33,325 bases of DNA from contig JANQID010000069.1 of NCBI GenBank assembly GCA_028282325.1, positions 1 to 33,325 of the forward strand, in the 5' to 3' direction. This stretch comes from Chloroflexaceae bacterium (lineage in GTDB: Bacteria > Chloroflexota > Chloroflexia > Chloroflexales > Chloroflexaceae). Below are positions 11,797-16,961 of the stretch, piece by piece (the stretch's first letter is position 1; each line of letters opens with the position of its first letter). The notes beneath the pieces are model-generated. The model worked only from the letters and a program-made list of their open reading frames with translations, did not search any database and was not told the origin of the DNA. The translations under genes and the position numbers were made by a program.

Positions 11797-13923
11797 CTAA
11801 CGTTCGTCGCTGGTGCAACTCATCAAGGCGCAGTTCTGGCTATCCATAACCGCCTCGCCGGGTGTCGGGCGCAGGCGTATATATTCGCCATCGGACTGCA
11901 AGATGCGCGTGCGGACATTGTCTTGCAGATACGCTTCCAGGATCGTATCACGCACCTGGCGCATCAGGCGTGGATCCTCCAACGGGAAAAGTTGCTCGAC
12001 GCGCTGATCCAGATTGCGCTCCATCAAGTCGGCGCTGCTCAAATACACCTCGTCGGCGCCGTTGTTGGCGAAATAGTAGATCCGGCTGTGCTCAAGAAAA
12101 CGTCCGACGATGCTGCGCACCTGGATCGTTTCGCTCCGGTCGGGGATGTTGGGGCGCAGGCTACACATCCCGCGCACGATCAGGTCGATGCGCACGCCGG
12201 CTTGAGACGCGCGATACAACGCGTCGATCATCTTCCTATCCACCAGCGAATTGACCTTGAAGATCAGATGCCCATTGCCGTGCTGGCGGTGGCTCTCGAT
12301 CTCGCGCTCGATCAGCTCCATGAGGCGCTCGCGCAGTGTCACCGGCGCCACGCCGAGCGCACGATACCTGCGCTGGCGGCTGTAGCCAGTGAGGAAGTTG
12401 AATAACTCTGACACATCCGCGCCGATGTCGGGCCGGCAGGTGAGCAGACCCAGGTCGGTATACAGGCGGGCGGTGCTGGCATTGTAATTGCCCGTGCCGA
12501 GGTGAACATAGCGCCGGATGCCGTCGCTCTCCTTGCGCACGACCAGCGCCAGTTTGGCGTGGGTTTTCAACCCGACCAGACCATACACCACGTGGACGCC
12601 GGTGCGCTCTAAGGCGCGGGCCCAGCCGATGTTATTCTCCTCGTCGAAACGCGCTTTCAGCTCAACGAGCACTGTCACTTGCTTGTTCTGCTCGCGGGCA
12701 TACATCAGCGCGCGAACGATCGGCGAGTTGCTGCCGACGCGGTATAACGTCTGCTTGATCGCCAGCACGTTGGGATCATCGGCGGCGGCCTGGATAAAGT
12801 TTACGATAGGCGCAAAGGAGTCATAGGGGTGATGCAACAGAATATCGCCCTGGCGAATGCTCGTGAAAATATCCACCGAGTCGTGCAATACGGATGGCAT
12901 ATGCGGCACGTGCGGCGGGTCCTTGAGATCGGGACGATCAAGACCCATCAGCGTCATCAGGTCGGAGAAGCCGAGCGGCCCGTGCATAGGATAGAGATCG
13001 ATCAGTCCGACCTTGAGATTATTCAACAGCAGTTGGCAGATCCGCTCCGGCATGGCGTCATCAACCGTGACGCGCACGACTTCGCCGAAGCGTCGCTGGC
13101 GCACTCCGGCTTCAATCGTGCTAAGCAGGTCGCCGGCCTCGTCCTCTTCGATCTCCATATCGGCATTGCGGATGACGCGGAAGGGATAGGCCTCCACGAC
13201 TTCCATACCCGCGAACAGCGACGAAACGTGGGCGATGATCACTTGCTCGATCCAGATGAAATAATGCAAGCGCTCGCCCATCAACCCTTCCGGACCGTCG
13301 CACAGGTCGGCGGGAATGGCGATCAGCCGCGGCAATACTTCCGGCACCTTTACGCGCGCAAACAGCTCGCCCTTCTCCGGATCCTGGATCGCCACGGCCA
13401 GATTCAGGCTCAGATTCGAGATGTGCGGGAAGGGGCGGCTGGTATCTACCGCCAAAGGCGTCAACACCGGGAAGATCTCGCGCTCGAAGTAGTCTCTGAG
13501 GAACTCGCGCTGCGCCGCATTCAAGTCGTCGTAGTGAACCAGATGAATGCCAGAGTCGCGCAAACTCGGCAGGAGGTCTTCAAAGAACAATGTGCGTTTT
13601 TGCTCAAGGATCGGCTGCAACGCCCGGCGGATCGCCAGCAGTTGCTCGCTGGGTGTCAGCCCGTCGGCGGAAGGTTTCTGCACGCCGGCGGCGATCTGCT
13701 GCTTGATGCCGCTGACGCGGATCATAAAGAATTCGTCGAGGTTGGAGGCAAAGATAGCGAGGAACTTTACGCGTTCGAGTAGCGGGTTCTGCCGATCGAG
13801 AGCTTCTTCGAGCACACGCCGATTAAATTCAATCCAGCTTAGCTCGCGATTGAAGTAAGGAGTGTCAGGGTTGGGAAGCATAAACTCCTGCTCTATGATG
13901 TTGAAAGATGCGCGTAACACCAT
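11797..13923 (-). CDS. ppk1: Polyphosphate kinase 1
   Basis: 708 residues from the ATG at 13923. I chose this start because GGAGG (complement of 13932-13936) sits 8 nt upstream. Fourteen more residues are possible but lack a binding site, and a later ATG at 13881 has its AGGAG too close. The N-terminal domain begins YFNRELSWIEFNRRVLEEA. Two PLD-like active-site motifs are present, THAKLAL with His455 (the phosphorylated His of the family) and EHSRIYYF with His612. RRYVHLGTGNYN is conserved. It reversibly makes polyphosphate from ATP. A promoter is visible upstream, and thpR follows in the same operon. Confidence 0.96.
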   Translation of the reverse strand: MVLRASFNIIEQEFMLPNPDTPYFNRELSWIEFNRRVLEEALDRQNPLLERVKFLAIFASNLDEFFMIRVSGIKQQIAAGVQKPSADGLTPSEQLLAIRRALQPILEQKRTLFFEDLLPSLRDSGIHLVHYDDLNAAQREFLRDYFEREIFPVLTPLAVDTSRPFPHISNLSLNLAVAIQDPEKGELFARVKVPEVLPRLIAIPADLCDGPEGLMGERLHYFIWIEQVIIAHVSSLFAGMEVVEAYPFRVIRNADMEIEEDEAGDLLSTIEAGVRQRRFGEVVRVTVDDAMPERICQLLLNNLKVGLIDLYPMHGPLGFSDLMTLMGLDRPDLKDPPHVPHMPSVLHDSVDIFTSIRQGDILLHHPYDSFAPIVNFIQAAADDPNVLAIKQTLYRVGSNSPIVRALMYAREQNKQVTVLVELKARFDEENNIGWARALERTGVHVVYGLVGLKTHAKLALVVRKESDGIRRYVHLGTGNYNASTARLYTDLGLLTCRPDIGADVSELFNFLTGYSRQRRYRALGVAPVTLRERLMELIEREIESHRQHGNGHLIFKVNSLVDRKMIDALYRASQAGVRIDLIVRGMCSLRPNIPDRSETIQVRSIVGRFLEHSRIYYFANNGADEVYLSSADLMERNLDQRVEQLFPLEDPRLMRQVRDTILEAYLQDNVRTRILQSDGEYIRLRPTPGEAVMDSQNCALMSCTSDER

Positions 13924-14016
13924 AAGAGCTGCCTCCATGCAGCTTGTAATCGGCAGATCTGGCACACTTCATCGTATGTCGTATGAAAATTCTGTAATAT
14001 TATGGCGACGCAACAT

Positions 14017-14183: not shown

Positions 14184-14609
14184 GTGAATAAGGTTATGTC
14201 GATCACACACGTTATCCAGGTGCGCGTGCGCTATGCCGAAACCGATGCCCAAGGCGTCGCTCATCATAGCAGCTACGCCGTCTGGTTTGAGTCAGGGCGT
14301 GTCGAGTTGCTGCGCGCCCGTGGCGTGAGCTATCGCGATTTCGAAGCGGCGGGCTATATGATCGTCGTTACCGATTTGCGCATTCGCTATCGGTCTGCTG
14401 CGCGCTTCGACGATCTGCTGATCTTGCACACGACGCTGACCGATGTGCGCAGCCGGACGCTGGCGTTCGAGTATGAGATACGCCGCGAGGATGGCCTGGC
14501 GCTGGTCGCCGGGCGAACGGATCACGTCGTGCTTGATCTGGCGAGCAGACAGCCCGCGCGCCTGCCGGCGGAATTAATCGAGGTGCTGGGCTTGACAACG
14601 GATCAGTGA
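14184..14609 (+). CDS. Acyl-CoA thioesterase, 4HBT/YbgC type hot-dog protein
   Basis: 141 residues from a GTG at 14184. An ATG four codons later (14196) is equally possible, and neither has a good ribosome binding site. The 4-hydroxybenzoyl-CoA thioesterase signature is clear: VRYAETDAQGVAHHSSYAVW with the catalytic Asp, then FESGRVELLRARGVSY. The rest forms the expected antiparallel sheet (DLRIRYRSAARFDDLLIL). The enzyme hydrolyses an acyl-CoA whose identity cannot be told. The product is cytoplasmic. It is the first gene of a likely two-gene unit with the SelW-like gene, which starts 25 bp downstream. Confidence 0.88.
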   Translation: MNKVMSITHVIQVRVRYAETDAQGVAHHSSYAVWFESGRVELLRARGVSYRDFEAAGYMIVVTDLRIRYRSAARFDDLLILHTTLTDVRSRTLAFEYEIRREDGLALVAGRTDHVVLDLASRQPARLPAELIEVLGLTTDQ

Positions 14610-14633
14610 TTGCAATGAAGAAGGGGGTTGGCT

Positions 14634-14897
14634 ATGCGGATTACGATTGAGTTCTGCGTCAAGTGAAACTATACCCCGCGCGCCGCCAGGATGGCGGAAG
14701 AGTTGATTACTGCGTTTCGCCCGCCGCTCGGACAGGCCCATCCAATTGAAGAGGTTGTGCTGCTTCCTTCGGATGATGGGCGCTACGAAGTGACGATTGA
14801 CGGCGATCTGGTGTATTCCAAGGCCGCCGTCGGTAAACACACCACGAACGAATACATCGTTGAGCGTGTTCGCGAGCGTTTGCCGTCGCAGGAATAA
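14634..14897 (+). CDS. SelW/Rdx-family thioredoxin-like protein with in-frame UGA, probable selenoprotein (CxxU)
   Basis: Reading from ATG 14634 (GGGGG seven bases upstream), the protein begins MRITIEFCVK, meets TGA at 14664-14666 (codon 11), and continues NYTPRAARMAEEL to a TAA at 14895-14897, 87 codons in all. The family motif is CxxC or CxxU followed by NY.PRA near the N-terminus. Here it reads C8-V-K-U11-N-Y-T-P-R-A, so UGA falls exactly at the position taken by selenocysteine in SelW. The later family features are intact (EEVVLLPSDDGRYEVTIDG, DLVYSKAAVG). A conventional start at 14691 would remove the redox motif and the first strand. A SECIS-like hairpin follows the UGA. Alternatives are a nonsense mutation of a Cys codon (TGC/TGT to TGA) or a sequence error. 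Role in the family: thiol redox chemistry. Confidence 0.75.
14664..14697 (+). promoter_or_regulatory. UGA codon and SECIS-like hairpin for selenocysteine insertion
   Basis: Sixteen bases after the UGA (14664-14666), CCGCC (14683-14687) pairs perfectly with GGCGG (14693-14697) around the loop AGGAU (14688-14692). Bacterial SECIS elements are short stem-loops lying roughly 16-37 nt behind the UGA with a G among the first loop bases. The E. coli fdhF loop is AGGUCU. The spacing, GC-rich stem and AGG loop all fit SelB recognition. The lower stem is not obvious. Confidence 0.6.
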
Positions 14898-14941: not shown

Positions 14942-14982
14942 TTTCGGTCAATTTTTGCCCTCCGGGCAAAAATTGACCGAAA
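14942..14982. terminator. Perfect 19-bp inverted repeat downstream of the SelW-like gene
   Basis: TTTCGGTCAATTTTTGCCC (14942-14960), loop TCC, then its exact complement (14964-14982). It lies 45 bp after the stop of the SelW-like gene. The hairpin is strong enough to end transcription or protect the mRNA, but A residues, not T, follow it on the plus strand, so a classical terminator is not certain. Confidence 0.5.
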
Positions 14983-15146: not shown

Positions 15147-16118
15147 TTATCTATAAGGATCTGCCAGATGCTCCAGTCCATTCGTCGCGGCGATGCCGTA
15201 AGGCGCATACGCGACGAGCGCGGCCAACGCCGGGTCGTCGCGGTCGAAGATTGCCGGTCGACTCGAAACCAGCATCGGAACACCTAACGCACGCGTCCAC
15301 TCAACATCGTCGCGAGCCTCGGCAGGGCGCTCGCCGTCGCGGTCGGCGATGATGCTTTGCGTGCAGCGATCGAACGCCAGTCCGCGCCGGAGAATATCGA
15401 CGCTCTGCAAGCCGATGACCGCCGCCTCGACAGCCGGATCGGCCAGCAGGTTCCGTGTGGCGTCGTAGTCGGCGTCTGGAAGGGCGCGAATGTTGGCGAT
15501 GCCGCGCTGTTGCAACAGCGCTGTCGCCTGTTGCACGATCTCTGTGCGGCGGCGTTCGCCTGTAACAGCATAAATAGGAATGTAGCCCAGGTTGTCCCAC
15601 GGCGTAGCGGGCGGCGCCTCATTCGCGATCTGGAATGGATCGAAGTCCCAGCTTCGCACGCCATACCCGAACTGGATCCGGTTGTCGGCCCGGCGCAGCA
15701 CCGGCACGTTGCGGCGGCGCGCCTCGGCGAGCAACTGCACGGTCGCTACCGGCAGGGCGGCCTGACGGCGACGTTGTTGCATCTCCAAGAGCGGCGCATC
15801 CCGATCCCATTCTTCATCGCCGATGGCCTCCGCTGCGATTCCGGCGACGATATATGCAGCCAGTTCTTTGCCGATCTGGGGCATCGGCGTGGCGAAGGTA
15901 GCGCAGATGTCCACGCCGTCCGTATCCGCAGCGATGGTTACTTCCAGATAGGCGATAACCAGTCCGATGGATTGTGCGCCATCTTTGAGCGCCACTTTGA
16001 GGCGACGGCTGCGATCGCGGTCGCAGCGCGCCCGGAGCAAAACGCCTGGCTGCGGGCCAAAGACGTTCGGCCCGTCATAGGCCAGCAGCTGGGTAATCTC
16101 GATAACCGGCATGGACAT
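15147..16118 (-). CDS. Cyanophycin-synthetase-derived protein lacking the ATP-grasp domain and the Mur-ligase P-loop
   Basis: 323 residues from the ATG at 16118 (GGAG 9 nt upstream). Residues 1-153 follow the N-terminal part of cyanophycin synthetase (YDGPNVFGPQPGVLL, then VQLLAEARRRNVPVLR and IQFGYG, the point where ATP-grasp begins in CphA). The ATP-grasp domain is then absent. By residue 180 the sequence reads as the Mur-ligase domain: IPIYAVTGERRRTEI aligns with IPVIAVTGTNGKTTT, LADPAVEAAVIGLQSVDIL and RRGLAFDRC with CphA's R-P-EAAVLETARGGILREGLGFDRC region, and DRDDPALAALV with the later NADDPLV. The P-loop lysine and Thr residues are gone. Full CphA is about 870 residues, so this is a short form, free of stops, with no visible ATP-binding site. 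It cannot polymerise Asp-Arg. A binding or regulatory role is possible but unknown. Confidence 0.7.
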   Translation of the reverse strand: MSMPVIEITQLLAYDGPNVFGPQPGVLLRARCDRDRSRRLKVALKDGAQSIGLVIAYLEVTIAADTDGVDICATFATPMPQIGKELAAYIVAGIAAEAIGDEEWDRDAPLLEMQQRRRQAALPVATVQLLAEARRRNVPVLRRADNRIQFGYGVRSWDFDPFQIANEAPPATPWDNLGYIPIYAVTGERRRTEIVQQATALLQQRGIANIRALPDADYDATRNLLADPAVEAAVIGLQSVDILRRGLAFDRCTQSIIADRDGERPAEARDDVEWTRALGVPMLVSSRPAIFDRDDPALAALVAYAPYGIAATNGLEHLADPYR

Positions 16119-16170
16119 ACTGTCGCTCTCCAATATTCTCCAGTGGTTGTATCGTGCCAAATGCTCTGGC

Positions 16171-16176
16171 ATTATA
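16171..16176 (-). promoter_or_regulatory. -10 element (TATAAT) of the cyanophycin-synthetase-like gene in a 78-bp divergent region
   Basis: On the minus strand 16176-16171 is a perfect TATAAT, about 50 nt upstream of the ATG at 16118. The -35 region is not a good match. The same bases read on the plus strand give TTATAG, which with TTGTAT (16147-16152) could serve the methyltransferase. The two divergent genes therefore seem to share overlapping promoters. Confidence 0.4.
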
Positions 16177-16196
16177 GTTTGAATCATACAACAGCT

Positions 16197-16961
16197 ATGA
16201 CTCATACAGCGACCCGCCTCCAGGATTTGCACGCGCCGTTTGCGCCGTTGTTACGGATAGTGTTGGCGCAGGCCGCACTGCGCCGGGTCGATCGGGCGCT
16301 CGATCTCGCTTGCGGGCCGGGGTTAAAAACCGGCTGGCTTGCCGCTGCCTTGCAGCCGGGCGGGTGGGCGCTGGGCGTCGATGCGGATCGGCGGGCGTTG
16401 CACGAGGCATGCGCAATGACCGAAGACCGGCGTGTTGAATGGGCCGCGGGCGACGCACTCGCCCTGCCGCTGCGTGATGCGTGCGTCGATCTGTGCTGGT
16501 GCGTCGCCGCGCTGCACCAGTTCGCCGACCCGGCGCTCGCCCTGTGTGAGATGCGGCGGGTGATGCGGCGCGGCGGAACGCTCGTGGTTGCGACGGTTGA
16601 GCAGCTCTGGGTGCGGGCGCGTTCCTGGCCGCCCGATCTGAGTGCGGCGTTATCCGGCGCGCTTGCGGTGTCGGGCGGCGATCCAGGGTTGCTGCCGGCC
16701 GACGGATTGGCCGATGCGCTGATCGCTCGTCTGGCGACGGCGGGTTTCACGGCGATCCGGGCGCGTGCTTTTCTCCTCGACGCGACATTGATGCCCTGGG
16801 TGCAAGAGCTGACCCTGGCGGACTGGCCGCATCTGCGTACGCGCGTCGCCTCTCTGCTCGATGCTGTCATTCTCGAACGCTGCGATGCATATGCCGCTGC
16901 CGAGCCTGAACCGGTGATCGCGCCGGTTTTGCTGATTGCCAGTGCGCTAAAGGCCGAGTGA
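16197..16961 (+). CDS. Class I SAM-dependent methyltransferase (Methyltransf_11/UbiE-like)
   Basis: 254 residues starting MTHTATRLQDLHAPFAPL at 16197. The frame stays open a long way upstream, but that part is antisense to the preceding gene. The SAM-binding fold is plain: motif I ALDLACGPGLKTGWLA, the acidic end of strand 2 (GVDADRRAL), GDALALPLRDACVDLCW for motif II, and MRRVMRRGGTLVVATV for motif III. The C-terminal half (LLPADGLADALIARLATAGF onward) is typical of small-molecule methyltransferases in this group. The substrate is unknown. It is divergent from the cyanophycin-synthetase-like gene. The protein is cytoplasmic, with no membrane segments. Confidence 0.85.
   Translation: MTHTATRLQDLHAPFAPLLRIVLAQAALRRVDRALDLACGPGLKTGWLAAALQPGGWALGVDADRRALHEACAMTEDRRVEWAAGDALALPLRDACVDLCWCVAALHQFADPALALCEMRRVMRRGGTLVVATVEQLWVRARSWPPDLSAALSGALAVSGGDPGLLPADGLADALIARLATAGFTAIRARAFLLDATLMPWVQELTLADWPHLRTRVASLLDAVILERCDAYAAAEPEPVIAPVLLIASALKAE

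Follow-up and report, generated by a model that had tools for sequence, protein, structure and literature searches.

SelW-like CxxU proteins (PF10262) are among the prokaryotic selenoproteins that have been predicted with high confidence (PMC13188914, PMC9312934), and few selenoproteins are more abundant in bacteria than the SelW-like ones. A relative, MIEN1, is a redox protein of the thioredoxin-like type whose potential is -225 mV (PMC3527542). The gene described here, rdxU, belongs to an already known kind because bacterial selenoproteins of the SelW-like CxxU type form an established family; the abundance of such proteins in bacteria does not bear out the unusualness implied by the original prediction, which was made from the DNA sequence alone.

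The gene lies in a stretch of 33,325 nucleotides from Chloroflexaceae bacterium (contig JANQID010000069.1, positions 1 to 33,325; hereafter, the window). We consider it very likely (probability of about 0.96) that rdxU is a bacterial SelW-like (Rdx family) selenoprotein gene, in which the UGA at positions 14664-14666 is decoded as selenocysteine (Sec) via SelB and a hairpin behind the codon. The gene, its family, the conserved TGA, the conservation of the hairpin, and the Sec machinery were each established by sequence comparison. The features of the gene are as follows.

14634..14897, + strand: rdxU, SelW-like selenoprotein gene (87 aa; matches to PF10262 and TIGR02174; same-family orthologues)
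14664..14666, + strand: in-frame TGA, predicted to be read as Sec (U11, the second redox residue of CxxU; conserved TGA, Sec machinery in the genome)
14683..14697, + strand: bacterial SECIS-like hairpin (5-bp stem CCGCC/GGCGG, loop AGGAU, 16 nt after the UGA)
14619..14627, + strand: probable ribosome-binding region, rich in purines (AGAAGGGGG), before the rdxU ATG (assigned from sequence; GGAG or GGAGG at the matching position in several relatives)

Reading frame and family of rdxU

As originally predicted, the frame opens at ATG 14634 and has TGA as codon 11, in the context FCVK-U-NY at the second redox position, followed by 76 sense codons and a TAA at 14895-14897. The product begins with MRITIEFCVKUNYTPRAARMAEELITAFRPPLGQ..., and its CxxU motif (C8-V-K-U11), near the N-terminus, is invariant in the alignment. 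The read-through protein matches PF10262 (Rdx) with 66.1 bits (E=3.4e-18, cut-off 22.6) at profile positions 1-74/74, against 32.9 bits at positions 20-74 only for the 68-aa piece that starts at the in-frame ATG 14691; the Rdx homology thus spans the TGA, and by these scores the match across it is not a chance one. TIGR02174 (CXXU_selWTH) is matched with 48.8 bits, above its cut-off of 34.2. The NCBIfam equivalog NF041051 (SelTWH_Campy) gave 66.0 bits, below its curated cut-off of 88, and on profile comparison the rdxU protein is a relative of SelTWH_Campy that lies outside that equivalog. A plasmid search gave no match.

Selenocysteine machinery and other selenoprotein candidates

The assembly that carries rdxU is 99.98% complete. 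The search for Sec machinery that had been proposed as a check found every component in this genome, i.e., a tRNA-Sec gene (selC) with the anticodon TCA, SelA (540 bits), SelB (351 bits), and SelD (373 bits). SelB with Sec-tRNA-Sec would bind the hairpin 16 nt behind the UGA, and the hairpin-bound complex would then insert Sec as residue 11 of the protein. We infer from these comparisons that Sec is actually inserted in this bacterium and that the rdxU protein is redox active.

The SelD gene (L019; G000:C133:15617-16543, minus strand) has an in-frame TGA of its own, U35 in GCAGUAAKMG, at the usual Sec/Cys place of SelD. A Prx-like protein of the AhpC/TSA type (L152; G000:C65:63252-63668, minus strand) has an in-frame TGA in FFUPHCAPH (UxxC) and is a third selenoprotein candidate in this genome; it resembles the Prx-like UxxC proteins, which are a known selenoprotein type (PMC13188914). 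The FdhA/formate dehydrogenase-like genes, considered as a further selenoprotein, were rejected, as their matches contain no in-frame stop. A mechanical scan of the window for CxxU/UxxC-like frames returned 20 more TGA contexts, which, from their context and their overlap with called open reading frames, look like antisense or out-of-frame noise.

SECIS-like hairpin

The predicted stem, loop, and spacing are all present: CCGCC at 14683-14687, the loop AGGAT at 14688-14692, and GGCGG at 14693-14697, with a 16-nt spacer from the TGA. Because the folding energy of this hairpin is unremarkable (z from -0.8 to -1.9, with longer pieces favoring a competing fold), the case for it rests on comparison among relatives; an Rfam search found no SECIS family match. 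At the fixed register, 49 of 64 Sec genes can form the complete five-pair stem, but not one of 45 Cys genes can, and when the Sec genes were shuffled among synonymous codons, the full stem was formed in a mean of 10.3 and a maximum of 17 of the 64. Pairing of the stem reaches 98.3% across 35 Sec genes, a figure that is biased upwards because these rows were picked by hand among the 64 and most of them have an intact stem; 49/64 is the unbiased value. In the same 35 genes, compensatory changes occur in three of the five stem pairs (CG/UA, CG/GC, and GC/AU; 20 cells changed on both sides), and the covariation score of 0.387 compares with 0.205 for shuffled and at most 0.129 for slid stems. The second position of the loop, a G in rdxU, is an invariant G in these genes and matches the G conserved in the apical loop of bacterial SECIS elements (PMC1088965).

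Seven Sec-form SelW genes with the motif CAVUHY (L108, L115, L116, L130, L132, L139, and L140) lack the hairpin at the fixed register. Other possible stems start 10-12 nt after the UGA in the CAVUHY genes, which may use a different SECIS geometry.

Distribution of Sec and Cys forms

Among 400 sampled genomes of the phylum, Rdx was found in 186 and selA over the cut-off in 320. Among the matches listed, with five members of the order added, selA is present in 99 of 100 genomes with a TGA-form Rdx versus 31 of 44 with no-stop forms only (Fisher p=5e-7, uncorrected for kinship). The sole TGA-form genome without selA over the cut-off (G329) is 77% complete and has weak selA matches only. In an Rdx tree computed with the active-site residue masked, which has few columns and many unresolved forks, Sec and Cys forms fall in largely separate groups, and their labels require approximately 4 changes, versus 35 when shuffled.

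A scan of the genome contigs with the single rdxU protein found no relatives, probably because the query patterns hold Cys where the relatives have TGA. An alignment-based query found one Cys homologue, from Cytobacillus eiseniae (L142), which is 40% identical.

Within the family, Rdx genes occur in 9 of 41 genomes, with the TGA form in six (that of rdxU included), a no-stop form in five, and both in two. The latter two genomes, G414 (L053/L060) and G409 (L052/L061), have a Sec-form and a Cys-form Rdx each, the Cys forms belonging to a separate subfamily (CGYEPQTL...HSM). The comparison of U and C among homologues that was proposed with the prediction thus shows TGA kept in the same-family relatives and Cys homologues in the wider family and the CNY subfamily. 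Many genomes of the family have selA without any Rdx gene, so other selenoproteins presumably maintain the Sec system there.

Alternative readings of the in-frame TGA

Under the standard code the TGA interrupts rdxU, as it would in a decaying pseudogene whose Rdx Cys codon had mutated to a stop. The TGA, however, occupies the identical codon in all six same-family TGA-form genes, which come from different genera, and coding constraint continues behind it. Among the six, the pairwise dN behind this codon ranges from 0.24 to 0.41, below a dS of about 1 or more, which is saturated for several of the pairs. Changes are most numerous at third positions (593 vs 330 and 224), as expected for translated sequence. 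The check for gene decay thus revealed no sign of it in rdxU, and since the SECIS-like hairpin is also conserved among the relatives and the Sec machinery is present in the genome, a pseudogene is exceedingly improbable. Near-cognate decoding, in which the UGA would be read (e.g., as Trp or Cys) without Sec machinery, is scarcely credible either: the TGA form is associated with selA, the hairpin is restricted to TGA genes, and in every case the UGA falls opposite the second Cys of the CxxC motif.

The ATG at 14691, which the original prediction correctly named as a later in-frame start, offers a third reading, in which a 68-aa protein without the redox motif is translated and the upstream part of the frame is not. 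The short form does keep a partial Rdx match. On the other hand, I3, I5, C8, N12, and Y13, all of which are encoded upstream of 14691, are invariant in nine aligned relatives, and the ATG itself lies within the SECIS loop and is replaced by a Leu codon in L059 and many others. The purine-rich stretch, moreover, precedes 14634; we regard initiation at 14691 as very unlikely. Decoding of the UGA as Sec, as originally proposed, agrees with the Sec machinery, with the TGA kept in the relatives, and with the hairpin being confined to TGA genes, in which it covaries.

Genomic neighborhood

The neighboring genes are as follows.

11797..13965, - strand: polyphosphate kinase (ppk1), upstream neighbor (Pfam PP_kinase domains)
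14184..14609, + strand: 4HBT/YbgC-type acyl-CoA thioesterase, upstream of rdxU (PF13279, E=9.8e-19; TIGR00051 over the cut-off)
15147..16232, - strand: DUF4938 protein, downstream neighbor (PF16292, E=3.9e-75)

The thioesterase stop codon is at 14607-14609, which leaves a gap of 24 bp to the rdxU ATG rather than the 25 bp first given. Co-expression of the two genes, which had been suggested, is weakly supported, as G412 is the only one of the five relatives in which a thioesterase gene (62% identical) immediately precedes rdxU. With open reading frames read by eye, ppk1 is also upstream of rdxU in G412, G405, and G409, and the DUF4938 protein is downstream in G412, G413, and G409; by this comparison the neighborhood is largely common to the relatives. 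Just after rdxU, at 14942-14982, there is an inverted repeat whose 19-bp arms match perfectly around a 3-nt loop (TTTCGGTCAATTTTTGCCC / GGGCAAAAATTGACCGAAA). It may be a terminator or belong to a repeat element; no second copy of its core was found within the window.

Predicted fold and comparison with known selenoproteins

The single-sequence structure model of the rdxU protein is of medium confidence (pLDDT 63.5, pTM 0.51) and has the order E-H-E-E-E-H. Its top 22 Foldseek matches are all SelW-related structures, the best PDB matches being 2OBK, 2OKA, 2FA8, 2P0G, 3DEX, and mouse SelW (2NPB), in agreement with the sequence profile. From these fold and profile matches and from its relation to the redox protein MIEN1, the most probable role of the rdxU protein is therefore that of a thiol-disulfide oxidoreductase in the cytosol.

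We regard rdxU as a clear example of a real gene that is lost or truncated by ordinary gene calling. Its biology is otherwise as described for bacterial SelW-like proteins, and the result, while not surprising, is a good correction of the annotation. Selenoproteins of the SelW type occur widely across Chloroflexota, where Sec and Cys forms are largely separate subfamilies, and bacterial SECIS elements can be tested cleanly by comparing hairpins between Sec and Cys genes of one family.

The structures 2FA8 (from Agrobacterium), 2OBK, 2OKA, 2P0G, and 3DEX resemble the rdxU protein in sequence and predicted fold, whereas 2FA8 and 3DEX have Cys in place of U11 in the alignments. The Rdx protein of C. 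eiseniae belongs to the same CxxC/U-NY subfamily but has Cys (TGT) where rdxU has Sec. Mammalian selenoprotein W (2NPB) shares the CxxU thioredoxin-like fold (weak match in sequence, E=0.004; Foldseek E=1.7e-4). Eukaryotic SECIS elements are located in the 3' UTR, as for mammalian selenoprotein W, in contrast to the rdxU hairpin, which is inside the coding region. The family-level clade of rdxU is unlike other SelW-like proteins in having approximately six extra residues between helix 1 and strand 2 (four in L060) and an HTTNE motif near the end. We consider it doubtful that this clade forms a separate SelW subtype that has a partner or substrate of its own and that might be connected with the acyl-CoA thioesterase, which is adjacent in two genomes. 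The bacterial SelW-like selenoproteins (PMC13188914, PMC9312934, PMC1088965) and rdxU are alike in the Rdx domain, the N-terminal CxxU, the bacterial SECIS directly after the UGA, and the Cys-coding homologues elsewhere, and rdxU differs from them only in detail.
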